Part shown: piece after piece, positions 2,921 to 25,073 of the stretch
Layout: each line of letters opens with the position of its first letter
How positions within the stretch are numbered: the first letter of the stretch is position 1
Assembly: GCF_000183135.1 (NCBI RefSeq)
Contig: NC_014734.1
Coordinates: forward strand, 868,001-932,000
Direction: 5' to 3'
Origin: Paludibacter propionicigenes WB4
GTDB taxonomy: Bacteria; Bacteroidota; Bacteroidia; Bacteroidales; Paludibacteraceae
Length of the DNA stretch: 64,000 bases
Program-made: the position numbers and the translations under genes
Notes under the pieces: model-generated
What the model was told of the DNA's origin: nothing
Databases searched by the model: none
What the model saw: the letters and a program-made list of their open reading frames with translations, nothing else

Positions 2921-2994
2921 GATATAGGTAAAGAAATTCGCACCAACAAGAGAAACTGTTGTTTTTTTTAGAAATATGAGTTTAAAGAAAACAA

Positions 2995-3031: not shown

Positions 3032-3053
3032 CGATTATTTTAAATAAAATGTA

Positions 3054-3962: not shown

Positions 3963-4195
3963 TGTTGAATATTTTTAAATGTTTTCTGGTTATGTATTGT
4001 TACTTTCTATGCGTTAGACAACTGATGTCGGCATAAGTTTAATCCACTACCTTTATTTGGAATGGAAACAGGTTAAGCTGCATGTTTAGACTAAGCAACA
4101 TCGGTTTTCTATACAAATTTTGATGTATCCGGCAGTTGTTTTACAGTGGATGAATTACGCGGGCCTTTGCACGGCATTTTCTATATTCTGCAGCA

Positions 4196-9155: not shown

Positions 9156-10172
9156 TCAATGCAGAATTTTGAAAACCAGCTCTTTCATCAAGTCGCCTTC
9201 GTCGGTACTTGGATTATCAATCCCTTTGTACCTTGCATCCGTATCGCGAATCCATGATATGATATTCATGGTTTTCCAGGCTCCAAAGCTCTGAGCTGCT
9301 TTTTGATAATCTTTTACGAAATAGGGATTTATCCTCAGTTCAGAAGCCACTGCACCTTGACTTTTATCTGATAGATAATGATATATCATCAAATCGCTAA
9401 AAAATTTAAATAGCTGCGACAACACCATTACCATCGGGTTAGCTTTTTTATTTTCAGCAAAATAGCGTATTATACGGTTCACCTTCACCACATCTTTATT
9501 AATCAGTGCTGCCTGTAATTCAAACACATTGAAATCTTTGCTTATTCCAATATTCTTTTCTACCAGTTCGGGAGTTAACCGTTGCATATCAGCTGGTTTT
9601 GTCAACAAGAGTTTATCAAGTTCGTTCACCAACTTGCTCAAATCAGTCCCTAGAAACTCAGCAATCATTGCTACTGCTTTTTCGTCAATAGCCACATTTT
9701 TCGATTTGCAATACTTTGTAATCCAGCTCCCAACTTCATAATCACGTAATTTGGCTGATTCATATACTGTGGCAACCTTCAGAACTTCCTGAAACCATTT
9801 CTTACGCTTATCGGGCATACCGTATTTATAACACAGAACTAATATTGTAGATTTTAGCGGATTAGACAAATAGTGAACAAAATTATCCCAATCCTTAATC
9901 AGTTGAGCTTCTTTTATAATCAATACCTGATAAGCTCCCATCATGGGGTAGCGTTTAGCCGCATTTATCACCGTCGTGATATCAATATCCTTTCCATATA
10001 AAATGGTCATATCAAACTCTCTCTCTGTCTCATCAAGCACGTTTTTCTGAATAAAATCAGATATTACATCAATATAATAAGGTTCTTCTCCCATCAGGAA
10101 GTAAACCGGACTATACTCTTTCTTACGGAGATCTGTCAGAATTTGATCGTATGTTGTTTCTTGTTTAGCCAC
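9156..10172 (-). CDS. holA: DNA polymerase III subunit delta
   Basis: 338 residues. PVYFLMGEEPYYID at the N-terminus is the degenerate P-loop region of HolA, the clamp-loader subunit that opens the beta sliding clamp. It continues with the DLSKLVNELDKL motif near 175-186 and a C-terminal collar domain. It lies between tex and the AMP nucleosidase gene, all on the minus strand. As I recall, holA/amn/HsdR_N neighbourhoods are common in Bacteroidales. The ATG start gives the expected MAKQETTYDQI N-terminus. Confidence 0.93.
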   Translation of the reverse strand: MAKQETTYDQILTDLRKKEYSPVYFLMGEEPYYIDVISDFIQKNVLDETEREFDMTILYGKDIDITTVINAAKRYPMMGAYQVLIIKEAQLIKDWDNFVHYLSNPLKSTILVLCYKYGMPDKRKKWFQEVLKVATVYESAKLRDYEVGSWITKYCKSKNVAIDEKAVAMIAEFLGTDLSKLVNELDKLLLTKPADMQRLTPELVEKNIGISKDFNVFELQAALINKDVVKVNRIIRYFAENKKANPMVMVLSQLFKFFSDLMIYHYLSDKSQGAVASELRINPYFVKDYQKAAQSFGAWKTMNIISWIRDTDARYKGIDNPSTDEGDLMKELVFKILH

Positions 10173-10211
10173 TTTTTGGTTGTTGGAAAAGTATTTTTCT
10201 GAGATAAAAAA

Positions 10212-10985
10212 CTATTCAAATCTCAAATGCTTGATAGTTCTACTGTTATTAATCAATGAAGATAAGGACTTTACTCCTATTTTTATATGTTCTTCCACAA
10301 AGTTGACAGTTACTTTCTTATCGCTTTCACTGGTTTTAATTCCATCTTCCTGCAAAGGCATATCCGAAACCAAAAGTAAAGCTCCAATAGGTATACTGTT
10401 ATAAAAACCAACCGAAAACAAAGTTGCAGTTTCCATATCCACAGCCAATGCATGTGTCTGACGCAGATAGTCTTTAAAGCTTTCATCATGTTCCCACACA
10501 CGTCGGTTGGTGGTATAGACTGTACCGGTCCAGTAATCTTTCCCAAAGTCACGAATATTCGAAGACACAGCACGTTGCAAGCTGAAAGCCGGAAGAGCCG
10601 GTATCTCTGGTGGGAAATAGTCATTGGATGTTCCTTCGCCTCGTATGGCAGCACTCGGTAAAATATAGTCTCCCAACTTGTTTTTATCCTTGAGTCCTCC
10701 GCATTTACCCAGAAACAGAACCGCTTTTGGGTTAACTGCCGATAAAATATCCATGATTATGGCCGCATTTGGACTTCCCATACCAAAATTAATGATCGTA
10801 ATTCCATTTGCCGAAGCATTTGGCATATTGCCATCTCTCCCCACAACCGGCACATTATACCATTCTGCAAATAATTCTACGTAATTATTAAAGTTGGTAA
10901 GTAATATATAATCAGTGAATTCATTCAGTGGACGTTTGGTATAACGAGGTAACCAATTTTCAACTATTTCTTTTTTTGTTTTCAT
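10212..10985 (-). CDS. amn: AMP nucleosidase
   Basis: 257 residues of the nucleoside phosphorylase (PNP_UDP_1) superfamily. Motifs: TIINFGMGSPNAAIIMD at about 65-81, AVLFLGKCGGL at about 89-99, VDMETATLF at about 182-190 (the purine/ribose-binding Met-Glu), and LVSDMPL near 205-211. It matches the short Bacteroidales-type AMP nucleosidase, which hydrolyses AMP to adenine and ribose 5-phosphate, and lacks the long N-terminal domain of E. coli Amn. The gene is about 40 bases upstream of holA and probably cotranscribed. Another nucleoside phosphorylase specificity is possible but less likely. Confidence 0.85.
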   Translation of the reverse strand: MKTKKEIVENWLPRYTKRPLNEFTDYILLTNFNNYVELFAEWYNVPVVGRDGNMPNASANGITIINFGMGSPNAAIIMDILSAVNPKAVLFLGKCGGLKDKNKLGDYILPSAAIRGEGTSNDYFPPEIPALPAFSLQRAVSSNIRDFGKDYWTGTVYTTNRRVWEHDESFKDYLRQTHALAVDMETATLFSVGFYNSIPIGALLLVSDMPLQEDGIKTSESDKKVTVNFVEEHIKIGVKSLSSLINNSRTIKHLRFE

Positions 10986-11144: not shown

Positions 11145-11603
11145 ATGTGGCAACTAAACCTACCTGAGTATAATTTTCGAATAAAAAAACAAGACGAAAA
11201 ACTTCTAATTTTTGATGCTCAACGTAAAAGATACGTCTCACTCACCCCCGAAGAATGGGTACGCCAGCATTTCATTCGTTTTCTTATCGAAGAGAAAGGA
11301 TATCCTGCCGCATATCTTGCCATAGAAAAGCAGTTGGTGGTAAATGGTATGAAAAAACGATGCGATGCCATATTATATAATAGCCTGGCTGCCCCCATCA
11401 TGATTATTGAATTTAAAGCTCCAAACGTACCCATTTCCCAATCCACCTTCGATCAGGTAGCTGTGTATAACAGCAAATTAAACGTGGATTTGTTTATTGT
11501 CAGCAACGGAATTGAGCACTTTTGCTGCAAAGTAAACACCAAAACAGCACAATATGAGTATTTTTCCCAAATTCCGGACTATTTTGCTATTAAAGGTTGT
11601 TAG
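11145..11603 (+). CDS. HsdR N-terminal-domain nuclease-like protein (stand-alone)
   Basis: 152 residues. EEWVRQHFIRFLIEEKGYP is followed by a catalytic PD-(D/E)xK-like core: RCDAILYN (Asp76) and IMIIEFKAP with Glu-x-Lys near 87-89. This is the HSDR_N domain of type I restriction subunits, but no ATPase/translocase domain and no hsdM or hsdS gene is present, so this is not a restriction system. Stand-alone copies next to holA/amn are a conserved feature of Bacteroidales, and their role (possibly DNA repair) is unknown. The 3' third of the gene lies within the left arm of the inverted duplication, and a truncated copy is at 24821-25001. Confidence 0.8.
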   Translation: MWQLNLPEYNFRIKKQDEKLLIFDAQRKRYVSLTPEEWVRQHFIRFLIEEKGYPAAYLAIEKQLVVNGMKKRCDAILYNSLAAPIMIIEFKAPNVPISQSTFDQVAVYNSKLNVDLFIVSNGIEHFCCKVNTKTAQYEYFSQIPDYFAIKGC

Positions 11604-11729
11604 ATTTTAATATTTTTATATTGCTGATAATCAGTTGTAATAAATAAAAACATGTTGTATAACAGTTAAATATGTATGGCAGAATAAAGATTTAACGCGA
11701 AAGATGCTGATTTTATGTTGTAAAACATA

Positions 11730-11737
11730 TAATTTTG
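11730..11737 (+). promoter_or_regulatory. -7 promoter element of small secreted-protein operon
   Basis: TAATTTTG (TAnnTTTG) about 100 bases before the ATG at 11837, conserved in the inverted copy at 24687-24694 within a block of identical sequence. No clear -33 TTG at ideal spacing. Confidence 0.55.
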
Positions 11738-11836
11738 CATCGTCAATCAGAGAAGATTTGATAAGACGTATTTAATCTTTATTTTTCGTTTAATAGGTAT
11801 AGGTATAAAAGAAGATTGTTATTTAAATTCCATGTT

Positions 11837-12199
11837 ATGAAAAAGATTTTAATGTTAGTTTTGGTATTAGTTGCAACTTCAGCTAGTACGTTCGCTCTCA
11901 ATCCTAAGGATTACTCAGTGTTTTATTCGCTAAACAATAAATCAACTTTCAGCGGTATAGTAAAGTATTTAGAAGCAGATAAAGAACAGGCTGATTTTCT
12001 CAAACAAATATTCGATGAAACAACTAAAGAATTGGATAACGCTACAAAAAGCAACAACGAGAAATTAGCAGAAAGTGTAATGAAATACAACTTGTACAAT
12101 GCCAAATGTATTTTGTCGCAAGATCAATACGAAAGATATTTGAAAATGCTCAATACATTTTCGTACAACGAAAAATCAGTGTTAGTTGCTCAAAAATAA
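11837..12199 (+). CDS. Small secreted protein, Bacteroidales family (left-arm copy 1)
   Basis: 120 residues starting at the MKKILML methionine. An upstream in-frame ATG at 11816 would spoil the signal peptide. A clear signal peptide (cleavage near TFA-LN, about residue 20) is followed by about 100 mostly helical residues: SLNNKSTFSGIVKYLEADKEQADFL and then ILSQDQYERYLKMLN. This pattern, residues before a helix that senses load and an LSxxQYxxYLxMLN end, recalls small secreted proteins widespread in Bacteroides whose function is unknown. The product is probably periplasmic. It is a paralogue of the next gene, with about one amino-acid difference (Ile/Val) from the inverted copy at 24223. Confidence 0.75.
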   Translation: MKKILMLVLVLVATSASTFALNPKDYSVFYSLNNKSTFSGIVKYLEADKEQADFLKQIFDETTKELDNATKSNNEKLAESVMKYNLYNAKCILSQDQYERYLKMLNTFSYNEKSVLVAQK

Positions 12200-12290
12200 G
12201 CAGCTAACCATTCAAAAAAGACGTTTTTTTATTAGGTATTATATTTTTATTATAGGTATTTTAAATTGTATAATTTATTTTTTTAAGGTT

Positions 12291-12656
12291 ATGAAAAAGA
12301 TTCTTAGTTTAATAGTTATCCTGGTAGCATTTGGCGCCAGTGTATCAGCAGTAAATCCACGTGATTACAGTATTTTCTACAAACTTAATAACGCAAGCAC
12401 TTTTAGCTCAATAGTTCGTTATTTGGATGCAGACAAAGAACAAGCGGATCAACTTAAATATGTGTTTTCACTTACTGAAAACAAGTTGAACTCATCATTA
12501 AAAGCCGACAACGAAAACTCAGCTCAAAAAGCATTGATGTTCAATCTGGCTAACGCTAAAGCTATTCTTTCCGAATCGCAATACAGAAAATATCTGACTA
12601 TGCTCAATGTATCTGTTTACAATGAAAAAGTAACGTTACTTGCTATCAACGAATAA
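12291..12656 (+). CDS. Small secreted protein, Bacteroidales family (left-arm copy 2)
   Basis: 121 residues from ATG 12291, which is chosen because MKKILSLIVILVAFGASVSA is a proper signal peptide. A longer frame opens at 12186 but reads through the intergenic region. The mature part NPRDYSIFYKLNNASTFSSIVRYLDADKEQ..., ending SESQYRKYLTMLN, is homologous to the preceding gene. The two are about 90 bases apart and share one terminator, so they form an operon. It differs from the inverted copy at 23765 by two residues (Arg/Ser and Ser/Gly). No function is known. Confidence 0.75.
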   Translation: MKKILSLIVILVAFGASVSAVNPRDYSIFYKLNNASTFSSIVRYLDADKEQADQLKYVFSLTENKLNSSLKADNENSAQKALMFNLANAKAILSESQYRKYLTMLNVSVYNEKVTLLAINE

Positions 12657-12680
12657 GCAAGAACCAACTCATAAACTATT

Positions 12681-12720
12681 GAGGGTGTATCAACTAGATT
12701 GATACACCCTCATTTTTTTT
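12681..12720 (+). terminator. Terminator of small secreted-protein operon
   Basis: 13-bp perfect stem GAGGGTGTATCAA/TTGATACACCCTC (12681-12693, 12699-12711) with a 5-base loop and T8-9. It also lies at the convergent end of the AlkD-like gene. It is repeated in the other arm. Confidence 0.92.
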
Positions 12721-12730
12721 TGATGAAAAC

Positions 12731-13423
12731 TTATTTCCGATGCTTTTCTATATAATCAATTACTTTCTGACTTCTCAGTTCCCGCAATGCATCAGTCGCA
12801 ATCCAACGAGCTGACTTAGAATTCTGATTCAAAATTGCTTCTGCGGATTCTATAGCTTTTAACCGCAAGAATTCATTGCGCTTGCCTATTTGTCGTAAAG
12901 CCCAATTTACAGCTTTTCGCACAAAATTTCGTTCATCCCAGGCTTCACGTTCGATGATTTTCAAAAAATAGCAGAATTGATCGTCCTCCATTTTCTTATG
13001 ATGTACAGCATACTGACACATCAAAACAAAAGCCGTCCTTTTTACAAACTCCTCAGTACGAACAGAATAATCATCTACTTTCTGAAGGGCTAACGGACTA
13101 TCTCCCAATAATCCACAGCATTGATCACACATATCCCATGAATCAAAATCATTAACCCAGCTATCAAACTGATTATCAGTAATCAATTCAGGCAGCTCAA
13201 TCATTGAAGCCAGCAGACGCGCTTCATGCACATCGGTATCCCAAAGTGCTAAAGCCAATTCGTGATTCTTCCCAATCTTCTTTGCAAATTGCCTCAGCAA
13301 CGGTATCTTAACACCGTAAGCTTTAGTTGCATTAATGCCAAAATGTGAGAGTTTAGCATAATGATCAGCGGTTACCAACAACTTCAATTCGTCAAGAATC
13401 TCATTTACAGTTGATTTCATCAT
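12731..13423 (-). CDS. DNA alkylation repair (AlkD-like) HEAT-repeat protein
   Basis: 230 residues with the AlkD/DNA_alkylation pattern: GVKIPLLRQFAKKIGKNHELALALW, an E..L.AS.....L, a DSWDMCDQCC turn near 115-124, RNFVRKAVNWALRQIGKRN near 170-188, and RWIATDALREL near the end. AlkD enzymes flip alkylated bases out and excise N3- or N7-alkylpurines. Many homologues are unstudied. The stop codon lies within the last bases of the left inverted arm. Its start codon abuts the stop of the CapA-like gene upstream (no gap), so the two are probably cotranscribed. Confidence 0.85.
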   Translation of the reverse strand: MMKSTVNEILDELKLLVTADHYAKLSHFGINATKAYGVKIPLLRQFAKKIGKNHELALALWDTDVHEARLLASMIELPELITDNQFDSWVNDFDSWDMCDQCCGLLGDSPLALQKVDDYSVRTEEFVKRTAFVLMCQYAVHHKKMEDDQFCYFLKIIEREAWDERNFVRKAVNWALRQIGKRNEFLRLKAIESAEAILNQNSKSARWIATDALRELRSQKVIDYIEKHRK

Positions 13424-14527
13424 CTATTGAATTAATTTGATATTGGATAATCTATCACGCGTTTTTATATCAAACTGTATCAAAGAAGCACTATCCTCTT
13501 TGTTTAATGCAAATGCAGAAGGATTTTTCTCAAAATCGATTGTTGGAATCAAATGAAACTGAAAATCACCATTCAACCTCCCGCGATGAACATAAACAGG
13601 CAAATACGAAACACTGGTGATTTTTTTGGAATGAGAATTAATATCAACCTTCAACATTAAACCACCTTTATTATTAGATTCTCGTTGATTGGATATGAAA
13701 TTTCCCAGCGAATAAAACACCGGAACCTGTTTTCCATCCTTATTTCTCATAATTTCAGCATTTTGTATAACATGCGGATGTGAACCTACAACTAAATTAA
13801 TACCATGATTTACAAAGAATTTTGCCAGGCTCCGTTGGACAACATTAGCCTTTAATTCATTCTCATTGCCCCAGTGAACAGTCATTATCCGCACATCAGC
13901 ACCAAGTTTATTCGCTTTTTCAATATCCTCTATAATCTCCAGCGTATCAATATAATTGATAAGATTTGGTTTAACCACTCTTATGCTATTTGTGCCATAA
14001 GTGCAATTAAAAAAAGCCAGCTTCAATCCGTTAGATTCCAAAATAAGTGGGTAAGTTTTATTTCGTTGATTACCATCAATATAGCTCCCAATAGAATGTA
14101 ATTTTCTTCTATCAATCTGCACCAGAGTTCGTTCTAATCCAATCTTACCTCTGTCTAAAATATGATTATTAGCTGTTTGCAGGATATCAAATCCTGATTT
14201 TTTGATTGCATCAAGCAATTCATCGGGGCTGGAAAAATAAGGAAAACCACTATATGGCTTGCCGGCAATTGGGACTTCCAAATTAGCAACAGCAAAATTT
14301 GCCGATTGAATATAGCGCTTAACCTGCTGAAAACAAACATCGTAGTTATATGTATTAGTGTTTTCGTTATAGGCAGCGTGAAATTGGGGAGAATGGCCCA
14401 TAATATCTCCAACAAATATTAGCGAAACCAACTCTTTCTTATTTGAAAAAAGCCGAACATTGCTATAATTATGCAGCAAATTGATGTATAAAAATAAAAA
14501 TGCAAACAATAGAAAGTATTTCTTCAT
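13424..14527 (-). CDS. CapA/PgsA-family metallophosphatase-like exported protein
   Basis: 367 residues. An N-terminal hydrophobic segment (5-18) is a signal or anchor. It continues with the CapA fold: FVGDIMGHSPQ at about 39-49, NLEVPIAGKPYSGFP, DILQTANNHILDRG, and MTVHWGNE....VVGSHPHVIQ near 240-250. CapA/PgsA proteins are linked to poly-gamma-glutamate capsule synthesis or act as cell-surface phosphoesterases. No capB or capC neighbour is visible, so capsule synthesis is unproven. It is translated just before the AlkD-like gene. Confidence 0.85.
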   Translation of the reverse strand: MKKYFLLFAFLFLYINLLHNYSNVRLFSNKKELVSLIFVGDIMGHSPQFHAAYNENTNTYNYDVCFQQVKRYIQSANFAVANLEVPIAGKPYSGFPYFSSPDELLDAIKKSGFDILQTANNHILDRGKIGLERTLVQIDRRKLHSIGSYIDGNQRNKTYPLILESNGLKLAFFNCTYGTNSIRVVKPNLINYIDTLEIIEDIEKANKLGADVRIMTVHWGNENELKANVVQRSLAKFFVNHGINLVVGSHPHVIQNAEIMRNKDGKQVPVFYSLGNFISNQRESNNKGGLMLKVDINSHSKKITSVSYLPVYVHRGRLNGDFQFHLIPTIDFEKNPSAFALNKEDSASLIQFDIKTRDRLSNIKLIQ

Positions 14528-14627
14528 AAAATTCTAAATGAAAGCATTAGACAATATTCAAGTAAGCTATCCGATTAAATCACAGACAATCAAGACTTTT
14601 TATTACTGATTTTCACTAATAATGTGT

Positions 14628-15539
14628 TTAAATTTCCAATGCACCTACGATCTCACTAACTGATTTATATCCATGCCGATCAAGATAATCATTTATCCCA
14701 TCAACAACTTTAATTGAAACTGTAGGATCAATGAAATTTGCAGTACCAATTTGAATTGCAGAAGCCCCGGCAAGCATAAACTCAATAGCATCTGCCGCAT
14801 TCATTATGCCTCCAAGTCCTATCACCGGTATTTTCACCGCCTGTGCCACTTGCCAAACCATACGCAGAGCTATTGGTTTAACCGCAGGACCAGAAAGACC
14901 CCCTGTTATAGTAGATAAAATTGGCTTTCTCTTCTCTGCATTAATAGCCATTCCCAAAAGCGTATTAATAAGAGAAACAGAATCGGCTCCTTCGGCCTCT
15001 ACAGCCAGTGCAATCTCTGAAATATCCGTTACATTTGGCGAAAGCTTTACTATTAATTCGTTTTTATAAGCCCTTCGCACTTCTTTAACTACTTGAGCAG
15101 CAGACAAACAGCTTGTTCCAAAAGCCATTCCGCCTTCTTTTACATTCGGACAAGATATATTTAATTCAATTGCAGGGATTTTTTCTAAAGAATTTAGCAT
15201 TTCAGCCGTTTCTACATAGTCTTCTATCGTAGAACCTGAGACATTCACAATTATATTTGTATCGATGTCTTTTATAGTTGGATAAATATGGTTTATGAAG
15301 TAGTCAGCACCTTTATTTTGCAGTCCCACAGCGTTTAGCATGCCTGACGGAGTTTCAGCCATACGCGGATATGGGTTACCTTGTCTATCCCGAAGAGTTG
15401 TGCCCTTCACAAATATACCGCCTATTCGCGACACATCCATGAAGTCCGAAAACTCAGTTCCATAACCAAATGTCCCAGATGCAGTCATCACTGGGTTTTT
15501 CAATTGTAATTTACCAATATTGATGTTTAAATTTGCCAT
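14628..15539 (-). CDS. pyrD: Dihydroorotate dehydrogenase B, catalytic subunit
   Basis: 303 residues, class 1B PyrD. FMN-binding TASGTFGYG near 19-27 and the catalytic Cys130 in [11 protein letters not shown] identify the NAD-linked class. It continues with [16 protein letters not shown] and [31 protein letters not shown]. It oxidises dihydroorotate to orotate in pyrimidine synthesis, with electrons passing through PyrK to NAD+. It overlaps pyrK by 13 bases, which implies translational coupling of the two subunits. Confidence 0.96.
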
Positions 15540-16303
15540 TTCAGCTTTGTAATATTAAAAACAGGTCCTTCAGTACACACACACAGATGTCCATCTGTTG
15601 TATCGGTCACACAACAAAGACAGGCACCAATACCACAAGCCATGGTATTTTCAAGTGACACCTCGCAATTAGCCCCTATTTTAAGCGCATAGGCAGCCAC
15701 AGCCTTCATCATAGGTGTAGGTCCACAAGTATAAATATAATCGAAATTAGAGTTGTTTAAAGCAGAATGCTGGGTCACAAAACCTCGTTCTCCATGAGTT
15801 CCATCTTCTGTTGTGGTATACACATTCCCGAATCGCTCATATTCACAAAGCTGCAATAAATCGGTCTTAGAGCGGGCGCCTAGTAGAAAATTAACTTCAA
15901 AACCTGCATTTTTCAAGTGAGCACCCAGATATAACAAAGGAGCCACGCCACAGCCTCCACCAACTAAAAGCACTTTAGCATCTTTTCTTTCAGGAAAGTT
16001 GAAACTGTTTCCCAGTGGTATAAGCATATTTAATGATTCTCCCACATTCATTTCAGCCATTCTTTTCGTTCCATCACCCACAATTTGAATCAATATCCAC
16101 AACTCATTAAGCTTATAATCAACATAATGAATAGATATTGGACGACGTAAAAAAGTAGTTGGAGAACCATCAACACGCACTTCTGCAAATTGTCCTGGTA
16201 ATATTTCTGGTAGTTTATCTGGTGAAGTAAGAATAAGGAGTGAATATTGATTGCTTAATTGCTTGTTTTCCTTTATAATCAAGTCAAGCATGTATTTCTT
16301 CAT
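15527..16303 (-). CDS. pyrK: Dihydroorotate dehydrogenase B, electron-transfer subunit
   Basis: 258 residues from the ATG at 16303 ([10 protein letters not shown]). An in-frame ATG at 16363 adds 20 hydrophobic residues atypical of the family and lies close to the promoter. The features are an FAD-binding [11 protein letters not shown] at about 63-73, an NAD-binding [15 protein letters not shown] near 123-137, and a C-terminal cysteine cluster ([11 protein letters not shown]...LCVC) for a [2Fe-2S] cluster. It passes electrons from PyrD FMN to NAD+. It is first in the operon, and the leader contains a perfect inverted repeat. Confidence 0.95.
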
Positions 16304-16320
16304 CGTTTGTAATATATTAT

Positions 16321-16384
16321 GTATCAATAGAATATAAAAATTGATACAGGTGAGGAAAAACAATTATTATGTAGTACAAAATTA
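16321..16384 (-). promoter_or_regulatory. pyrK leader: GTATCAAT/ATTGATAC palindrome and -7 element
   Basis: TAATTTTG on the minus strand at 16377-16384 is a -7 element. The predicted transcript then passes GTATCAAT (16321-16328) and ATTGATAC (16340-16347), a perfect 8-bp inverted repeat with 11 bases between, ending 18 bases from the pyrK ATG. It could be an operator or a translation-controlling hairpin of the pyrimidine operon. Confidence 0.5.
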
Positions 16385-16452
16385 CATAATTTTCCTGACA
16401 CGGCAGTCAAATATAGCACTTAAAGGTTCAAATGTTTGAAATTATTTCAAAT

Positions 16453-16941
16453 TCACTTTGAGTCAAATTCCTGAAATGTATTATCAGTATAATACACAAT
16501 AATTTTTTTGACAGACTTGGAGACAGATTCCACAGAAGGATAATTAACAGGAATTGTTGGCTCCTGCGGAATTTCGGACACAGTTTCTGCAACAGGAGAG
16601 TTTTTTTGCTGGATGAATAAAGATTGTGATGCTTTTTTTTCATCCGTTTTTAAGTCTAAATCACCTGATTTATAGACATTTTCATCAATAGAATCGAATA
16701 ATGTGGGCGCCTGAGATTGCTTTTCTGAGCGATACATTGATCCAACACCCAAAATAAGCCAATCTGAGCTAATCGTACGGAAGCGATTCAGAATTTTTTT
16801 TAGTACATCTAAACTTGGATTATTTCTTCCATTTAAAATATGGGATAGAGTAGAGCCTTGAATACCTATTTCGGCGGCAAATACAGCAGAGTTCATTTCT
16901 TCCTGCTGCATAATCTTTTCAATTCTTTCTTTTTCATCCAT
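16453..16941 (-). CDS. XRE-family helix-turn-helix regulator
   Basis: 162 residues from ATG 16941 (MDEKERIEKIM); an upstream in-frame ATG at 16971 adds a hydrophobic tail foreign to the family. The N-terminal HTH at about 17-55 (FAAEIGIQGSTLSHILNGRNNPSLDVLKKILNRF) and the following DWLILGVGSMY match the Bacteroidales group of XRE proteins with an N-terminal DNA-binding domain and a long acidic, proline-containing low-complexity middle (70-140). Its target is unknown. The leader upstream is a long AT-rich region, and pyrK lies downstream, about 150 bases away. It may act locally. Confidence 0.8.
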   Translation of the reverse strand: MDEKERIEKIMQQEEMNSAVFAAEIGIQGSTLSHILNGRNNPSLDVLKKILNRFRTISSDWLILGVGSMYRSEKQSQAPTLFDSIDENVYKSGDLDLKTDEKKASQSLFIQQKNSPVAETVSEIPQEPTIPVNYPSVESVSKSVKKIIVYYTDNTFQEFDSK

Positions 16942-16971
16942 AATAAAGCAATATATGTGTGAAGTGTACAA

Positions 16972-17818
16972 TTATAATTACTTTACAAAGATATGTGAAT
17001 TGACTCACATATGCAAATTAATCACAGTTGTAATATGTTACTTTTGTAATTACACAAATGTATATACGCATAGTACCTTGTACTTTGTATATAATATATG
17101 TTTATACTCTTTATTTAAAGCATATATTCATATTATTTTAAGTATGAATTTAATTAAATCATAAAATCAGATATATAAGCTTATATATATTGATTATCAA
17201 TTAATTGATTACATATATATGTCTTAAATGACTAAATATGACAACTATATTACTTTAGTGAACATACAGATGAATTATAAATATAGAAATTAAGTGTATA
17301 ATAATGATTATAAGTATATTATATGACTATTTTTCTTATGTTTATTTACTTCATATCTATACATTCATTTTTGTATATATAATTACATGTATGAATTTAT
17401 CGACGTTACATGCGTAATTTAGTACATACATTTTTAAAAATTATTTTTGTGAAGTCTCAAATATATTTGTGAACTCGATCAAATAATACATATGTGAATC
17501 AAATAAATTTATGAAGATTATTTTATTGAGGAGAAACTAGTAATTATTGTCATCAGTTATAGCAAGAAAGAAAACTGTAATGTTTGATATGAGAAGTAGA
17601 ATGAAAAATAGAGAGGAGAAACTAAAAATATGACCCTCAACCCTAGTCTTCCAGGAAATTTATTGATTTTATACAGAATGATCAACCAACAACAATTAAA
17701 AAAGCTGATTAAAATATTTTTAATCAGCACTTTACAGCAATAATTAATCAATGAGAATCGAATAATTAAAAACGACTGTACAAATGACGGGATAATTAAA
17801 TTCTCAGACAAAAAAAAA
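16972..17818. other. AT-rich intergenic region without recognisable gene
   Basis: About 850 bases, visibly much richer in A and T than the rest, with many TATATA runs. The frames present are shadows of low-complexity sequence. It contains the element GAGGAGAAACTA twice (about 17529 and 17614) and the hairpin at 17703-17727. No tRNA, 6S or tmRNA signature was recognised. A small RNA cannot be excluded. Confidence 0.5.
17703..17727 (-). terminator. Orphan terminator-like hairpin
   Basis: GCTGATTAAAA/TTTTAATCAGC, 11-bp perfect stem with a 3-base loop. On the minus strand it is followed by a six-T run (A 17697-17702). The zinc-ribbon gene has its own terminator 90 bases earlier, so this second one is unexplained and may end a small transcript starting in 17730-17818. 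Confidence 0.5.
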
Positions 17819-17844
17819 GAGCCTGAAAATAAATTTTCAGGCTC
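17819..17844 (-). terminator. Terminator of zinc-ribbon gene
   Basis: GAGCCTGAAAAT/ATTTTCAGGCTC, 12-bp stem with a 2-base loop. A nine- to ten-base T run follows on the minus strand. It lies 28 bases after the stop at 17873. Confidence 0.9.
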
Positions 17845-17872
17845 TCTCTCTCTAAAATATGTAAGTTTATGC

Positions 17873-18649
17873 TTAATCTTCCGAAACAGGAACAACAATA
17901 CCTGCCAGTTCCTGATCTACCAAAATACGACCACAATATTCGCAAACAATAATTTTTTTGCGTAGACGTATGTCTAGCTGACGTTGAGCTGGAATCTTAT
18001 TAAAACATCCCCCACAAGCATCACGCTGAACATATACTACTGCTAACCCATTTCTTGCATTTTTACGAATACGTTTAAATGCAGTTAACAGACGTGGCTC
18101 AATTAAAAATTCAATTTCTTTTGCATGCTCACGAAGTCTTTCTTCTTCTTGCTTTGTTTCAGAAACAATTTCGTTTAGCTCACCTTTCTTTTGTTCCAGG
18201 TCAAGCTTACGTTCTGCTAAATGCTCAGCCGTGATTTTTTGTTCAGACGACTTTGTTTCTTGTGCTGCTGTAAATTCACGTATACGTTTCTCACAAAGTT
18301 CAATTTCCAACGATTGAAATTCAATCTCTTTGGATAAATTATCGTATTCACGGTTATTTCGTACATTGTCTTGTTGCTCTTTGTATTTAGCAATTTTCAT
18401 TCGAGATTCTTCAATCTCAATTTTTTTACTGGCAATAGTAGCAACAATTTCAGCTATTTCTGTTTCAAAATTTTCCAAACGGGTATTTAAACCAATAATT
18501 TCGTCTTCTAAATCCTGCACCTCCAATGGGAGTTCGCCGCGCAAAATTTTAATTTCGTCTATTTGGGAAACCGCTTTCTGAAGCTCAAAAAGTGCTTTAA
18601 GCTTTTCTTCAACGGTAATTTCTTTTTCTGTTTTTAATTCTGTAGCCAT
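17873..18649 (-). CDS. Coiled-coil C4 zinc-ribbon protein (DUF164/CdsZ-like)
   Basis: 258 residues. Residues 10-185 are almost continuous heptad coiled coil. The C-terminus holds a zinc ribbon with Cys212, Cys215, Cys236 and Cys239 (ACGGCF...VCEYCGRIL). This is the conserved zf-RING_7/DUF164 family that commonly sits beside Nif3-like genes, as here (5 bases apart, so cotranscribed). Related proteins bind nucleic acid or act in flagellar or RNA functions, but no role is established in Bacteroidota. Confidence 0.88.
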   Translation of the reverse strand: MATELKTEKEITVEEKLKALFELQKAVSQIDEIKILRGELPLEVQDLEDEIIGLNTRLENFETEIAEIVATIASKKIEIEESRMKIAKYKEQQDNVRNNREYDNLSKEIEFQSLEIELCEKRIREFTAAQETKSSEQKITAEHLAERKLDLEQKKGELNEIVSETKQEEERLREHAKEIEFLIEPRLLTAFKRIRKNARNGLAVVYVQRDACGGCFNKIPAQRQLDIRLRKKIIVCEYCGRILVDQELAGIVVPVSED

Positions 18650-18654
18650 ATTGA

Positions 18655-19749
18655 TTACAAATAATTTATGGGGTTGGTTTTACTGTCTGAAATTTGGACT
18701 GCAAATGTAGGCATTTTTTTTGTAATTATCTCAAAAAAAATGTCTTTTGTGAACTGTTCGCTTTCGAAATGTCCGATATCGGCTATCAAAATTTGCTTTT
18801 GATAGTCGAAAAATTCATGATATTTAAAATCACCGGAAATGTATACATCGGCTTTGGCTTGAATAGCGTCGGGTAAAAATGAGCTCCCGGCACCTCCGCA
18901 TAAAGCAACTCTCTTAATCTTTTTTTCGAAAAGATTGGTGTGGCGAATGGACTGCACATTGAATACCTGCTTCAATCGGTTTAAGAAGAAGCTTTCATCC
19001 TCCGGATCAGCCAACTCTCCTACTATCCCTGCTCCTACCTGATTCCAGGCATTTTGCAAAGCAATAAAATCATACGCAGGCTCTTCATACGGATGCACTT
19101 TTAGCAAACTCTCAAGTACTTTATACTTTTGATATTCAGGCAGAATAACTTCTAAACGAATCTCCGACTCTGTATGCAAATTATTGATACTACCTACAAA
19201 TGGATTAGCTTTTTCATTGGCTCGAAAAGTTCCGCTACCTTCAACACTGAAACTACAAGAGTCATAATTACCTATCACTCCGGCTCCCGCTTGAAACAAG
19301 GCTTGTTTTACTTCTGAAACATGACTGTTAGGAACATAGGTAACTAATTTGAGCAATAAATTTTGTTTCGGTTGCAGAATTTGAAGGTTCGTAAGTCCCA
19401 GTTTTTCAGCCATTTTTCCACTTACACCAGATAAAACATTATCAAGATTGGTATGAGCAGCATATATGCAGATATCATGTTTGATAGCTTTTATTACGCA
19501 ACGTTGTACCAGATTTTGACCTGTTATTCTCTTCAAACCTGTAAAAATAAGCGGATGATGAGAAATTATCAGATTGCATTTCTTTTGGATGGCTTCTTCA
19601 ATTACTTCTTCAGTTATATCAATACAAACCAATACTGCTGTAACTTCCATTTGTGGGTCACCAACAAGCAATCCTGCATTATCATAACTTTCCTGCAATG
19701 ATAGTGGAGCAACCTCTTCAATAAGTTCACAAACAGACTTTACAATCAT
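18655..19749 (-). CDS. Nif3-like dinuclear metal-centre protein (DUF34, YqfO type)
   Basis: 364 residues, the long form with an inserted PII-like domain (about 125-225) as in Bacillus YqfO. Metal-binding motifs are visible: LIISHHPLIFTGLKR at about 60-74, AAHTNLDN near 97-104, ALCGGAGSSFLP near 290, and DIGHFESEQF near 334-343. It is often annotated GTP cyclohydrolase I type 2, but that activity is not firmly established and the name should be treated with caution. The zinc-ribbon gene follows 5 bases later. Confidence 0.9.
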   Translation of the reverse strand: MIVKSVCELIEEVAPLSLQESYDNAGLLVGDPQMEVTAVLVCIDITEEVIEEAIQKKCNLIISHHPLIFTGLKRITGQNLVQRCVIKAIKHDICIYAAHTNLDNVLSGVSGKMAEKLGLTNLQILQPKQNLLLKLVTYVPNSHVSEVKQALFQAGAGVIGNYDSCSFSVEGSGTFRANEKANPFVGSINNLHTESEIRLEVILPEYQKYKVLESLLKVHPYEEPAYDFIALQNAWNQVGAGIVGELADPEDESFFLNRLKQVFNVQSIRHTNLFEKKIKRVALCGGAGSSFLPDAIQAKADVYISGDFKYHEFFDYQKQILIADIGHFESEQFTKDIFFEIITKKMPTFAVQISDSKTNPINYL

Positions 19750-19787
19750 ATAGCTTTGTTTTTCAATCGATTAATCACGCACAAAAA

Positions 19788-20207
19788 TTATTTCGCCGCA
19801 ACCTCTTCTTCTTTTTCTTCTGCAACAAATTCTGTAACTTGAGCATTAATAAGAATATTATACCATGATAACAATTTACGAATATCACTAGGATATACAC
19901 GATCCCGATCATAGTCAGGAAGGACTTCGAGCATATATTTACGAAGCTTATCGTTATCAGATTTTGGATCGATAGAACAAACCGCACCGTTTTCTTTTGC
20001 TTTTAAACTTTCGAGCACCTGTCCTAAGGGAACTTCAGCAGTTTCTGTAAAAATAGCAATATCTCCCAATGATACAACTTTGTCTTTTGAGTAAGCCGGA
20101 AAACGTTTACCATCAATTAATGACTCAACAATCAACATATTTTTACCTTGTGATACAAGTTTGAAAAGTCCGGGTTTACCGGTTACGGATAAAATTTCTT
20201 TCAACAT
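19788..20207 (-). CDS. DUF5606 domain-containing protein
   Basis: 139 residues, cytoplasmic, beginning MLKEILSVTGKPGLFKLVSQGKNMLIVESLxDGKRFPAY and continuing with a sequence rich in beta-strand, then DRVYPSDIRKLLSWYNIL. This matches DUF5606, conserved among Bacteroidota and found near Nif3-like or translation genes. Function is unknown. A glutamate/alanine-rich tail ends the protein. A small SH3-like domain for binding is possible but is inference only. Confidence 0.85.
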   Translation of the reverse strand: MLKEILSVTGKPGLFKLVSQGKNMLIVESLIDGKRFPAYSKDKVVSLGDIAIFTETAEVPLGQVLESLKAKENGAVCSIDPKSDNDKLRKYMLEVLPDYDRDRVYPSDIRKLLSWYNILINAQVTEFVAEEKEEEVAAK

Positions 20208-20353
20208 AATTTTTTTAATTCATAATTCACAAATACAATACAAAAATAAAATCTGAATCAATTCACGCTGAATCAATATTCTGAGTGCAAATTTACAAGA
20301 TTCTTTTCTGAACTGACAAATATACTACATATTGTCTACTTATCGGCTTCAAA

Positions 20354-21085
20354 TTATTGATTTTTAATTAGAAAGCGAGTAAGTTCATTTAGTTTAATTC
20401 TTCCTTCGTATATAGCTTTACCGGTTATTACTGCCGGAACTTCAGCTTCCTGAAGTAGTTCGATATCATGCAGCGAACTTACTCCTCCACTGGCTATTAA
20501 ATACATCTCGGGTTTTTCGGATAGCATCTTTTTGTAAAGATCTATAGCCGGTCCTTGAAGCATGCCATCTTTACTTATATCTGTACAAATCACCTTATTA
20601 ACTCCCTTTGACATGTAGTTCGCGACAAAAGGCATCAAATCAATTTCAGTGGTTTCGAGCCACCCTCCTACAGCAATTTTCTCGTTTTTTACATCTGCTC
20701 CCAAAATGATTTTATCACCACCAAATCGGCTAATCCAAGAGCCAAAAACTTCCGGGTTCTTTACCGCTATGCTTCCACCTGTAATCATACTTGCTCCACA
20801 CTCAAAAGCTATTCTCAAATCGTCATCCGACTTTAGTCCACCTCCAAAATCTACAATCAAGTTAGTACCTGAAGTAATCTTTTCAAGCACTTTATGATTT
20901 ACTATATGATGAGCCTTAGCACCATCTAAATCAACTAAATGCAAACGACGAATACCTGCATCAGCAAACATTTTTGCAACTTCCAACGGGTTTTCGTTGT
21001 ATACGATTTTTTGTGCATAATCGCCTTGCGAAAGGCGAACACATTTTCCATCAATCAAATCAATGGCAGGAATTATTTCAATCAC
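20354..21085 (-). CDS. hisA: Phosphoribosylformimino-5-aminoimidazole carboxamide ribotide isomerase
   Basis: 243 residues, (beta/alpha)8 barrel, the fourth enzyme of histidine synthesis. Family hallmarks are [20 protein letters not shown] at 3-22 with the catalytic Asp8, DLDGAK near 52-57, [10 protein letters not shown] near 76-85, and [12 protein letters not shown] with the second catalytic Asp near 168-179. The start codon is GTG at 21085; the family N-terminus MIEIIPAID fixes it. It is separated from the rest of the his operon, which is not in the window. Confidence 0.95.
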
Positions 21086-21291
21086 AGAGTTATAAAGTTA
21101 CAGATTTGATGTTCAAAGTCAATCAATAGAACGACTTTAAACTGTTATGAAAAGCTTTACAAAAGTACTAAAAAATGAAAGATAAAGCAAACTGAATTAT
21201 GTACAGAAGATATCAAAAGATGAATTTAGAGAATCTTCATTATATTTCAGTAATAAAACTCAATTTCACAAAATTGTTAACTATTATTGAA

Positions 21292-21299
21292 TATATTTG
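21292..21299 (+). promoter_or_regulatory. -7 element of the site-2 protease gene
   Basis: TATATTTG, 16 bases before ATG 21315. It overlaps the TTG at 21297, so translation is more likely to begin at 21315 or 21330. The leader is very short. Confidence 0.6.
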
Positions 21300-21314
21300 C
21301 AGACAATAGAAAAC

Positions 21315-21965
21315 ATGATAATTATCAATATGGCATTAGATTTAGCTGATATTTTAAAAATTGCACCTGCAGCAGTCATCGGACTCACAGTGCATGAATT
21401 CTCTCATGCCTATGCCGCTTATAAACTGGGTGATAACACTGCCAAAGAAGAAGGCCGACTGACATTAAATCCCTTGAAACATATCGATTGGCTAGGATTC
21501 TTTCTGATTATCATTGCCGGCTTTGGCTGGGCTAAACCGGTTAGCTTTAATCCGAATAATTTGAAAAACAAGCATCGTGATGAAATTATTATATCCATTG
21601 CCGGACCAATATCTAACTTTTTACTGGCCATTTTATTTTTTGTTATTGCTCGGGTTTTATATTCGACGAGCTACTTTCAAACATCGAATTTAGAAATTAT
21701 TAACCTGATCATGACCTGGGGAATAATCAACTTTAGTTTATTTGTTTTTAATCTGATTCCAATTCCTCCGTTGGATGGATCTCATATATACCTGACATTT
21801 TTAAAAGAGATTAATCCTAAACTCATGACAAATATGTATAAATGGGGAACCTTAGGTTTAATACTTATAATCGTTGCTGAAAATAAACTGGGAATCAATA
21901 TCTTGCATATTTCTGATATGGTAAGTGGTCTGAGTAAGTTTTTTATAGACCTGATGAGTTTTTGA
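21315..21965 (+). CDS. Site-2 protease family membrane metalloprotease (M50)
   Basis: 216 residues from ATG 21315; ATG 21330 is an equally possible start, five codons in. The zinc motif HEFSH (residues 27-31) lies in the first transmembrane segment, followed by DNTAKEEGRLTLNPLKHIDWLGF. The family's third ligand region is NLIPIPPLDGSHI near 155-167 in a later helix. It fits the short M50B subfamily (YwhC/FtsH-independent) of membrane proteases of unknown substrate, found alone in many bacteria. There is no PDZ domain. Confidence 0.9.
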   Translation: MIIINMALDLADILKIAPAAVIGLTVHEFSHAYAAYKLGDNTAKEEGRLTLNPLKHIDWLGFFLIIIAGFGWAKPVSFNPNNLKNKHRDEIIISIAGPISNFLLAILFFVIARVLYSTSYFQTSNLEIINLIMTWGIINFSLFVFNLIPIPPLDGSHIYLTFLKEINPKLMTNMYKWGTLGLILIIVAENKLGINILHISDMVSGLSKFFIDLMSF

Positions 21966-22028
21966 TTCTAAAAACATATTAATCACGAAATTGTTGATAA
22001 ATAATAATGATTAAATAGCTTATTTATT

Positions 22029-22415
22029 ATGGAAACAGACAAGATTCAGGCAAAAAACATAGATGAATATATTGCTAACTTTCCAACTGATATCCAGAAA
22101 ATGCTTGACTTGATAAGACAAACTATCATAAATAATGCTCCAGAAGCAAGCGAAATTATCAGTTATGGTATGCCAGCATTCAAATTTCACGGTATGTTAG
22201 TTTATTTTGCTGCATATAAAAATCATATTGGTTTTTACCCCGGAGCTTCTGGCATAGAAGCCTTTAAAGAAGATATCAAAGCATTTAAAAATGCAAAAGG
22301 AACTGTTCAGTTTCCAATAGACAAACCACTCCCATTAGATTTAATTTCCAAGATAGTACAGTTTAGAGTAACCGAGAATACTGAAAAAGCTGTTGCAAAA
22401 AAGAATAAAAGATGA
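22029..22415 (+). CDS. DUF1801 (YdhG/YdeI-like) protein
   Basis: 128 residues. Family hallmarks are NIDEYIANFPTDIQKMLDLIRQTI, the ISYGMPAFKFHG turn at about 44-55, IGFYPGASGIEAFK, and GTVQFPIDKPLPLDLI near 91-106. Homologues are often called iron chaperone-like because of weak frataxin-fold similarity, and the function is unproven. The stop overlaps the ABC gene start by 4 bases (ATGA), so both are translationally coupled. Confidence 0.88.
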   Translation: METDKIQAKNIDEYIANFPTDIQKMLDLIRQTIINNAPEASEIISYGMPAFKFHGMLVYFAAYKNHIGFYPGASGIEAFKEDIKAFKNAKGTVQFPIDKPLPLDLISKIVQFRVTENTEKAVAKKNKR

Positions 22416-23656
22416 CAATACATTCAATTGGGCTTTACCTCTCAAATGCTTCGAATAAAAACCTGATTTTGGAGCAAATAATATCTAACAAGTATCTTAA
22501 AGATCATATTAACCTGGAATCGCTAAAAGGCTTATTACATTCCACTCTAACAATTAACCGATTTATTGAAGACGAAATTCGGCATGATAAGTTTCCGATA
22601 TACACTTCTGAAAATAAAAGTCTTGGTTCAATGTCCAGCGGCCAGCAAAAGAAAGCTCTGCTAGATTACCTGATACTGCAAAGACCAGATTACATTGTAC
22701 TTGACGATGTATATAGTAATATAGATAAAGCAACACAAGAATCTATAACCAACACATTGAGTCAATTGGCAGAAAACACCCTATTGATCCAACTTTTCTT
22801 CAGAAAAAGAGATATGTTGCCCTGCATTAAAACTGTTTACACAGTAGATGAAAATAATGCAATAATTGACGTTCAGGATGCTGAAGTATTTAAGACTAAA
22901 CAAACTATTTCGTCAACCAATCAACTGACATTGAATTTTCCACAAGGCTACGACGAAACCCACGCCGACATTAACCCTCTTGTTCAGCTTAATTCTGTTT
23001 CAGTTGAGTACATTGAAAAACCTGTTTTAAACAAGATCAGCTGGACTATTCAAAAAGGAGAATTCTGGCAACTGGTTGGTCCAAATGGTTCGGGTAAAAG
23101 TACTTTACTATCAATTATTATCGGAGACAACCCCCGTGGGTATGGTCAAGACATGGTTTTATTTGGAAAGAAGAAAGGTTCAGGTGAATCTATTTGGGAT
23201 ATCAAACGACAAATCGGATATTTTACACCAGCTATGATTCAGCAGTTTACACGGGACGATACAGTAGAAAATATGATTATATCCGGACTTATGGACTCTG
23301 TAGGACTATATTGTAAACCCACTGATATACAAAAAGATATTGCTAAAAAATGGATTTTAATGCTAAGTGCATCGTATTGCAACAAGTCGTTCCAAAGTTT
23401 ATCCATTGGACAACAGCGAATGGTAATGGTGGTACGCGCACTGGTAAAACATCCTCCATTATTAATTTTAGATGAACCTACAATTGAGCTGGATGATGAA
23501 AATAGCCTTTTGTTTATCGACATGATAAACGCAATTGCTAAAGAAAAAAAGATTACAATTCTTTATGTGTCCCATCGTGATGAGCCCGGATTGAAACCAG
23601 ATATGGTTTATGAATTAATTCCGGGTAAAAATGGCTCCACAGGAATAGTTAGATAA
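22412..23656 (+). CDS. Tandem ABC ATPase (ModF-like) with degenerate N-terminal half
   Basis: 414 residues with two ABC modules and no membrane segment. The C-terminal module is intact: Walker A GPNGSGKST near 224-232, signature SIGQQRMV near 330-337, Walker B LLILDEPT, and a switch His near 389. The N-terminal module lacks a Walker A and begins past it. It retains SSGQQKKALLDYLILQRPDYIVLDDVYSNID (signature and Walker B region). This asymmetry is like the E. coli ModF family, whose function is poorly known. The substrate is unclear. A truncated N-terminus of the gene is possible but no better upstream frame exists. Confidence 0.8.
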   Translation: MTIHSIGLYLSNASNKNLILEQIISNKYLKDHINLESLKGLLHSTLTINRFIEDEIRHDKFPIYTSENKSLGSMSSGQQKKALLDYLILQRPDYIVLDDVYSNIDKATQESITNTLSQLAENTLLIQLFFRKRDMLPCIKTVYTVDENNAIIDVQDAEVFKTKQTISSTNQLTLNFPQGYDETHADINPLVQLNSVSVEYIEKPVLNKISWTIQKGEFWQLVGPNGSGKSTLLSIIIGDNPRGYGQDMVLFGKKKGSGESIWDIKRQIGYFTPAMIQQFTRDDTVENMIISGLMDSVGLYCKPTDIQKDIAKKWILMLSASYCNKSFQSLSIGQQRMVMVVRALVKHPPLLILDEPTIELDDENSLLFIDMINAIAKEKKITILYVSHRDEPGLKPDMVYELIPGKNGSTGIVR

Positions 23657-23710
23657 CAATTCCAAGCATCATAGTGAATTTGACAAAAATAAGTTTTTAT
23701 CAAAAAAAAT

Positions 23711-23741
23711 GAGGGTGTATCAATCTAGTTGATACACCCTC
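23711..23741. terminator. Bidirectional terminator
   Basis: Copy of the 12681 hairpin (13-bp stem) with A8 on the left and T6 on the right. It serves the plus-strand ABC gene ending at 23656 and the minus-strand secreted-protein gene ending at 23765. Confidence 0.9.
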
Positions 23742-23764
23742 ATTTTTTATGAGTTAGTTCTTGC

Positions 23765-24130
23765 TTATTCGTTGATAGCAAGTAACGTTACTTTTTCATT
23801 GTAAACAGATACATTGAGCATAGTCAGATATTTTCTGTATTGCGATTCGGAAAGAATAGCTTTAGCGTTAGCCAGATTGAACATCAATGCTTTTTGAGCT
23901 GAGTTTTCGTTGTCGGCTTTCAATGACGAGTTCAACTTGTTTTCAGTAAGTGAAAACACATATTTAAGTTGATCTGCTTGTTCTTTGTCTGCATCCAAAT
24001 AACGAACTATCGAGCTGAAAGTGCCTGCGTTATTAAGTTTGTAGAAAATACTGTAATCACTTGGATTTACTGCTGAGACACTGGCGCCAAATGCTACCAG
24101 GATAACTATTAAACTAAGAATCTTTTTCAT
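23765..24130 (-). CDS. Small secreted protein (right-arm copy 2)
   Basis: 121 residues with the same signal peptide and helical mature part as the gene at 12291. It differs at two positions: SDYS for RDYS and NAGTF for NASTF. It is second in the minus-strand operon and shares the right-arm terminator. The near identity indicates a recent duplication or gene conversion between arms. Family and function are as for the left copy, with no known role. Confidence 0.75.
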   Translation of the reverse strand: MKKILSLIVILVAFGASVSAVNPSDYSIFYKLNNAGTFSSIVRYLDADKEQADQLKYVFSLTENKLNSSLKADNENSAQKALMFNLANAKAILSESQYRKYLTMLNVSVYNEKVTLLAINE

Positions 24131-24222
24131 AACCTTAAAAAATTAAATTATACAATTTAAAATACCTTTAATAAAAATATAATACCTAATAAAAAAACGT
24201 CTTTTTTGAATGGTTAGCCTGC

Positions 24223-24585
24223 TTATTTTTGAGCAACTAACACTGATTTTTCGTTGTACGAAAATGTATTGAGCATTTTCAAATATCTTTCGTATTGATC
24301 TTGCGACAAAACACATTTGGCATTGTACAAGTTGTATTTCATTACGCTTTCTGCTAATTTCTCGTTGTTGCTTTTTGTAGCGTTATCCAATTCTTTAGTT
24401 GTTTCATCGAATATTTGTTTGAGAAAATCAGCTTGTTCTTTATCTGCTTCTAAATACTTTACTATACCGCTGAAAGTTGATTTATTGTTTAGCGAATAAA
24501 ACACTGAGTAATCCTTAGGATTGAGAGCGAACGTACTAGCTGAAGTTGCAACTAATACCAAAACTAACATTAAAATCTTTTTCAT
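24223..24585 (-). CDS. Small secreted protein (right-arm copy 1)
   Basis: 120 residues, matching the gene at 11837 except for Val in place of Ile in NAKCVLS. I count about two nucleotide differences in the whole gene. It has a signal peptide at its N-terminus and a 92-base gap to the next gene. The promoter element at 24687 is retained, so this copy should be expressed. Confidence 0.75.
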   Translation of the reverse strand: MKKILMLVLVLVATSASTFALNPKDYSVFYSLNNKSTFSGIVKYLEADKEQADFLKQIFDETTKELDNATKSNNEKLAESVMKYNLYNAKCVLSQDQYERYLKMLNTFSYNEKSVLVAQK

Positions 24586-24686
24586 AACCTGGAAATTTAA
24601 ATAACAATCTTCTTTTATACCTATACCTATTAAACGAAAAAATAAAGATTAAATACGTCTTATCAAATCTTCTCTGATTGACGATG

Positions 24687-24694
24687 CAAAATTA
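24687..24694 (-). promoter_or_regulatory. -7 element of right-arm secreted-protein operon
   Basis: CAAAATTA on the plus strand, that is TAATTTTG on the minus strand, in the block conserved with 11730-11737. Confidence 0.55.
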
Positions 24695-24820
24695 TATGTT
24701 TTACAACATAAAATAAGCACGTTTCGAGTTAAATCTTCGTTCGACCACGCATATTTAACTGTTATATAACATGTTTTTATTAATTACATCTGATTATCAG
24801 ATAGATATAAATGATAAAAT

Positions 24821-25001
24821 CTAACAACCTTTAATGGCGGAATAGTCCGGAATTTGGGAAAAATACTCATATTGTGCTGTTTTGGTGTTTACTTTACAGC
24901 AAAAGTGCTCAATTCCGTTGCTGACAATAAACAAATCCACGTTTAATTTGCTGTTATACACAGCTACCTGATCAAAGGTGGATTGAGATATGGGTACGTT
25001 T
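24821..25001 (-). pseudogene. Truncated 3' end of HsdR_N-domain gene
   Basis: About 60 codons identical or nearly so to the C-terminal end of the gene at 11145 (VPISQSTFDQVAVYN onward to IKGC). One residue differs near the end (Ser for Phe in the PDYxAIKGC segment). The N-terminal half with the catalytic core is missing. A frame continues upstream to 25051 but is unrelated sequence. It is a by-product of the inverted duplication and not a functional nuclease. Confidence 0.9.
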
Positions 25002-25073
25002 CTAATAAAACTCCGGCAAAAAGTAAAAATAATTAATATTTTTTGACCCATAAATACTGTGGAACATTAGGTT

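Follow-up and report, generated by a model that had tools for sequence, protein, structure and literature searches.

Copies of the tuf genes and of the ribosomal RNA (rRNA) operons undergo concerted evolution by gene conversion (PMC6053082, PMC8262849, PMC5485169, PMC8022953). Recurrent concerted evolution has been described in 26 prokaryotic genes, the bacterial cases including tuf, nuoL, amo/hao genes, flagellin and transketolase; a table in that paper lists the amo/hao genes with eight species and about 449 million years, and the string 'Bacteroid' is absent from its main text (PMC6053082). When the inverted tuf genes of Salmonella recombine, as many as a quarter of the events are inversions, and the share of inversions in an inverted cassette assay was 8% (5/59) (PMC8262849). 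Here we describe a stretch of 64,000 nucleotides from Paludibacter propionicigenes WB4 (the window; bases 868001-932000 of NC_014734.1, the one closed contig of 3,685,504 bases that forms this genome). It contains two copies of an operon for two small, putatively secreted proteins, here called SP1 and SP2, that lie 11 kb apart and face each other. The second SP operon is probably a lineage-specific duplicate that has been homogenised with the first by gene conversion.

The two arms and their position in the genus

The SP operons lie in the arms of an inverted duplication of 1.3 kb, which had been proposed in an initial annotation of the window and is real. The left arm (11423-12736, forward strand) aligns with the reverse complement of the right arm (23687-25001, reverse strand) over 1,317 columns with 96.3% identity, 44 mismatches and 5 gap openings (E = 0), and self-comparison of the window recovers the arms as five inverted pairs. 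They bracket a block of 10.95 kb. Directly outside them similarity does not rise above that of shuffled sequence (966 and 795 of 1000 shuffles scored equally high).

Each arm carries complete open reading frames (ORFs) for both proteins, of 120 residues for SP1 and 121 for SP2. SP1 occupies 11837-12199 and SP2 12291-12656 on the forward strand, while the copies in the right arm lie at 24223-24585 and 23765-24130, respectively, on the reverse strand. The proteins differ between arms at 1/120 residues in SP1 and 2/121 in SP2, so that the complete two-gene operons and the near-identity of their products stand as first annotated, as does a truncated HSDR_N end in the right arm. The gene from which this end derives encodes a stand-alone HSDR_N_2 protein of 152 residues (11145-11603, forward strand; PF13588, E = 3.9e-38), and its 3′ part lies inside the left arm. 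The right arm retains the final 58 residues, one of them changed, within a 76-residue ORF (24821-25051, reverse strand; PF13588, E = 2.2e-12) that consists of the last 58 HSDR_N codons with their stop (24821-24997) and flanking sequence. The right arm had also been said to contain the tail of the AlkD-like gene; some AlkD bases are indeed there, but the claim was overstated, as they number only about 6 (the AlkD stop codon is at 12731-12733 and the arm ends at 12736).

Which copy is the original? We compared one genome per species, WB4 being G000 and the other G numbers its relatives. The HSDR_N, SP, AlkD and pyrD genes have the order and relative strands of the window in 11 other genomes of the genus (G032, G007, G005, G021, G016, G031, G022, G018, G066, G071 and G061; AlkD is fragmented in G016, and distant and in two pieces in G031), and three more (G068, G069 and G070) have the same order without AlkD. 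The native convergent neighbour is the AlkD-like gene (12731-13423, reverse strand; DNA_alkylation, PF08713). The convergent neighbour of the right arm is a gene for a ModF-like ATP-binding cassette (ABC) ATPase (22412-23656, forward strand; scoring below the NCBIfam ModF cut-off), whose stop codon lies 30 bases from the arm. A ModF-like match is present in 34/48 genomes of the genus, and SP adjoins it only in the source genome: when the relatives were searched for the right arm, as the initial annotation had suggested, no SP operon was found beside ModF in the 33 others by match coordinates, some of the matches lying near contig ends. Inspection by eye of the 150 bases that follow ModF in 17 relatives revealed nothing that corresponds to the right-arm flanks, and galM, which lies to the right of that arm, has no match in the ModF surroundings of eight relatives. 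Because the native gene order recurs in other genomes of the genus and SP stands beside ModF only in the source genome, the left arm is by synteny the ancestral locus, and the right arm is confined to this lineage among the genomes compared. The left arm had been named the donor, and it does occupy the original position. The names pyrK, pyrD, hisA and Nif3 are taken from the initial annotation and not from our protein scans.

Divergence between the copies and its explanation

The arms are unevenly diverged. Recursive segmentation of their alignment gives 4/161 mismatches (2.5%) at 11423-11583, 22/126 (17.5%) at 11584-11709 and 18/1,027 (1.8%) at 11710-12736 (mirrored at about 23687-24714). The best low-divergence tract, 11710-12664, has 1.47% mismatches against 8.4% outside it (0/1000 permutations). 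The low-divergence segment runs from promoter to terminator. A promoter/operator block, ATGTTGTAAAACAT followed by TAnnTTTGCA, lies at 11715-11739 on the forward strand and at 24685-24709 on the reverse strand; a motif search of the genome at up to 2 mismatches finds 3 sites, every one before SP genes (control 0). At the other end a terminator hairpin with a T-tract (12680-12720, forward strand; -22.2 kcal/mol, z -7.3) stands between SP2 and the convergent AlkD gene, and the identical terminator of the right arm (23702-23742, reverse strand; found as a palindrome match) faces the ModF-like gene. The alike part stops at the terminator because homology stops there. SP1 is more divergent than the HSDR_N tail between species and less so between the arms (Fisher P = 0.002, 0.009 and 0.011 against G016, G005 and G071, three comparisons that share one arm data set). 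Constraint alone would not account for the likeness of the arms.

How general is this pattern in the genus? Three metagenome-assembled genomes (MAGs), G032 (STB_36), G066 (LaCa_MAG_3) and G071 (MAG_BO7), have the native SP copy and one on another contig. The tract at 9497-10523 in G032 is 1.95% diverged from promoter to terminator against 23.6% upstream, and that at 1175-2174 in G066 (reverse of L109) 0.50% inside against 40.7% upstream in a single alignment, each with 0/1000 permutations; the G066 tract includes 16 consecutive mismatch-free windows of 50 bp. The upstream stretches are nevertheless still homologous (0/1000 shuffles for G032, 1/1000 for G066). Being homologous but diverged, they indicate that the identity of the operons understates the age of these second copies. 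In G071 the two copies are 77% alike across 683 bases, the tract test having been limited to G000, G032 and G066. Tandem SP pairs are found in G017 (90%) and in G027 (93.5%, with an AlkD tail), and G008, G009 and G063 have at least two SP matches on different contigs, which were left out of the pairwise comparison. In a tree of 53 rows and few columns the two copies pair within each of G000, G032, G066 and G071; support in G000 is 100/100 for the SP1 pair and 97/36 for the SP2 pair, the second value being weak. As in concerted evolution, paralogues are closer than orthologues, and a sharp-edged tract of low divergence lies in an older homologous stretch.

We suggest that the right copy arose by an ectopic inverted duplication in this lineage, which would have carried along the 3′ end of the HSDR_N gene. 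Later recombination between the copies could then have kept the part from promoter to terminator near identical, while the stretch directly upstream drifted to 17.5%. From these comparisons we infer gene conversion as the process, with a RecA-type mechanism, a direction and a benefit of dose. Both copies persist, and selection for a higher dose of the probably abundant SP proteins is perhaps the reason, an increase in dose having been considered in the initial annotation and being in keeping with the findings. The initial annotation had left the choice between recent duplication and gene conversion; the tracts, and the diverged but homologous sequence upstream of them, favour conversion over plain recency.

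Several observations weigh against conversion. The longest identical run between the arms (up to 164 bases) is not significant (P = 0.063), and neither is the Fisher test for SP2 (P = 0.13 twice). The HSDR_N tail, dispensable in the right arm, has diverged by just 2.5% over 161 bases, and therefore either was also converted or shows that neutral divergence is below 17.5%. Outgroup polarisation of the arm differences gave no decision on which arm changed. A gapped local alignment of the upstream stretch in G066 has 62 identities, with 16 mismatches and 7 gaps, and weak similarity is also seen in the 100 bases that follow the tract of that genome (27/1000 shuffles). G032 and G066 are MAGs, which calls for caution on the key comparisons, and the source species is represented by a single genome with no second strain.

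Would a single recent inverted duplication, free of conversion, suffice, with constraint on promoter and coding sequence preserving the operon and the upstream stretch mutated faster or replaced? The overall identity of 96.3% would fit this, as would the HSDR_N relic that is free to drift yet little changed, and the promoter block of the SP genes is conserved between species. We consider it unlikely, given that SP1 outpaces the HSDR_N tail between species and lags behind it between the arms (although SP2 gives no significant contrast), that the step from 17.5% to 1.8% is sharp, and that G032 and G066 repeat the pattern with upstream stretches that are homologous but diverged.

For a young duplication, 17.5% divergence at 11584-11709 is a high value, and third codon positions account for 6/7 of the changes in the HSDR_N tail, as they would in a comparison of functional alleles. 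Both would fit a right arm imported from a sister strain or species and then partly converted by the left arm. No close donor is present among the genomes compared, however, where the best SP2 match outside the source genome is 60% identical, and the arm DNA has no plasmid match and SP1 no phage match; import is accordingly quite improbable in our view.

It is more doubtful still that the operon is a mobile cassette, extending from promoter to terminator and copied repeatedly to sites that face the 3′ end of another gene. Copies do occur at unrelated sites in G000 (two), G032, G066 and G071, and homology stops within about 27 bases past the terminator hairpin. Moreover, 11/13 non-native SP loci at which the 3′ neighbour was read (from ORFs, not gene annotation) face a convergent gene; in G066 that gene is about 340 bases off, the G033 locus is not convergent and the third G000 copy is ambiguous. 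Yet the 5′ ends are unlike, and the 30-base flanks of the right arm share no word of 5 bases or more, so that there is no target-site duplication in them. No transposase is seen: the arm has no genes beyond SP1, SP2 and the HSDR_N tail, all four Y1_Tnp genes in this genome lie outside the window, and the initial annotation was right to see none, as a Pfam scan of 18 window proteins (a part of the ORFs) found no transposase. The apparently moved copies of G020, G060, G065 and G067 share one or other neighbour, which ordinary rearrangement explains; a suggestion that SP genes jump within the group of G002, G060, G065, G067 and G020 is weakened by these shared neighbours. One may also imagine promoter, SP1, SP2 and terminator as a self-contained copy-and-paste unit, copied behind stop codons and overwritten from copy to copy. 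This is a long shot; if true, the genus would keep a variable number of homogenised operon doses without a transposase.

The initial annotation had placed the emphasis on flipping of the housekeeping block. Crossover between the arms would invert the 10.95 kb between them. In its favour are the length of the inverted arms, 1.3 kb, their identical runs of as many as 164 bases, and the inverted tuf genes of Salmonella, which yield inversions alongside conversion (PMC8262849). Such inversion is possible in principle but unsupported, and that flipping is itself selected is very improbable. The left junction of the block is in the ancestral orientation. The gene hisA is opposite in strand to M50 and ModF in G066, G061, G009, G007 and G005 (all the relatives where the three genes were read), as in the window, and no sign of a flipped block was found in the relatives read, which have the window's orientation only. 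Nor would a flip break or fuse any gene, since the arms hold complete operons, and there is no recombinase among the 18 window proteins scanned. Finally, although short-read assemblies can misplace repeats of such length, an assembly artefact is extremely improbable, as the arms differ at 44 sites, their flanks are unlike each other and the genome was completed, by directed finishing and at 365.7x coverage, as one circular chromosome from 454 and Illumina data that included a 9-kb paired-end library (PMC3072083).

The SP proteins and the elements around their genes

SP1 and SP2 have a hydrophobic N-terminus that by eye resembles a signal sequence, and they are likely to be located in the envelope or outside the cell. 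The predicted structure is a helical bundle (mean pLDDT 77 in the model of SP2 from the left arm, low at the termini). No Pfam family matches either protein, the best E values in a sequence search of the PDB were only 0.31 and 0.38, and Foldseek gave no significant fold match (best E 0.91). SP2 was considered as a SoxAX-binding protein, SAXB (NF052674), and rejected at 23.4 bits against a curated cut-off of 95; SP1 had no match to it. Among the titles and opening lines of abstracts listed in literature searches no description of this operon turned up.

The family is concentrated in the genus. At least one SP match is present in 37/48 Paludibacter genomes, with one in 21 and two or more in 16 (fragments included). 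A sample of 149 genomes from the order gave matches in 7, the source genome among them; two of the others are strong (G054 and G180; E = 5e-38 and 1e-32) and belong mutually to the same family, and four are weaker (E = 5e-12 to 4e-4). Codon usage scores 0.66-0.71 for the four SP genes of the window, where the median is 0.63, and 0.62-0.78 for 30 mostly ribosomal ORFs taken as reference; the SP genes rank 4th to 11th of 60 window ORFs. Such values, close to those of ribosomal genes, are consistent with high expression and, together with a promoter block confined in this genome to SP genes, lend the idea of dose indirect support only.

A third, diverged SP gene lies elsewhere in the WB4 genome (G000:C1:12304-12834; L045 9305-9862). 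Its product is 44% identical to SP1 and 48% to SP2, and it shares the promoter block with the arms yet has not been homogenised with them. Beside it a 211-residue protein (L045 8348-8983) is reminiscent of REP-associated transposases; it was rejected as a transposase, having no match to Y1_Tnp and none in Pfam at 1e-4. Upstream of the main SP operator there is a second, weaker copy (2 or 3 mismatches) at 11652 and 24772 in the window, and at L061 15669 and L126 9279. The terminator palindrome was considered as a dispersed mobile repeat and rejected, as it is present genome-wide in the two arms only.

In many relatives the leader between the promoter and the first SP gene contains a hairpin with a T-tract, its loop mostly AATCAC, which looks like an attenuator. 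It is exemplified by L045 9384-9455 and found in 23 other leaders, while L112, L054, L024 and L049 lack it. In these 24 leaders, chosen for showing the hairpin, 97% of cells are paired, 5/11 pairs are changed on both sides and covariation is 0.219 against 0.105 in shuffles. No Rfam family matched the hairpin at gathering score in L045, L044 or the window. Searched with a model of the hairpin, the source genome has one clear match, at the third SP copy (E = 3e-15; the next, at 0.03, is on the opposite strand there). The window has a remnant near 11766-11790, the 5′ half being lost in both arms.

Elsewhere in the window, 1772-2770 and 2988-3998 form a tandem duplication with 83% identity, comprising a gene of about 300 codons and a terminator-type palindrome. 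The repeated unit is again a gene plus terminator; the gene at 3054-3962 has no Pfam match at 1e-4.

Comparison with known systems

If the likeness of the SP operons is due to conversion, the bacterial genes known to evolve in concert at distant sites gain a rapidly evolving operon for secreted proteins, from a Bacteroidales genus that is free-living. Three genomes show the pattern, with the second copy elsewhere each time and the alike part extending from promoter to terminator. The SP operons would thus offer a natural setting in which to test selection for dose and to learn how frequently inversion accompanies conversion between inverted copies. They also draw attention to a protein family, uncharacterised and possibly highly expressed, that has a promoter block and a leader element of its own.

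Inversion switches of the Bacteroidales combine a recombinase with short repeats and with promoters or partial genes. The arms share with them the arrangement of inverted repeats flanking a segment, but none of those other components is seen at the arms. The likeness to tufA/tufB and the rRNA operons is closer, in that distant near-identical copies in one chromosome are homogenised within a species, and the Salmonella tuf copies are inverted like the arms, with occasional inversions there. Unlike those genes, the SP operons encode a fast-evolving secreted family of unknown function that is found mainly in one genus, their second copies occupy a different site in each lineage, and the evidence for their homogenisation is comparative. 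The amo/hao genes resemble them in another respect, since several adjoining genes, hypothetical ones included, are alike within genomes; that case spans eight species and about 449 million years, whereas the SP duplicates are lineage-specific.

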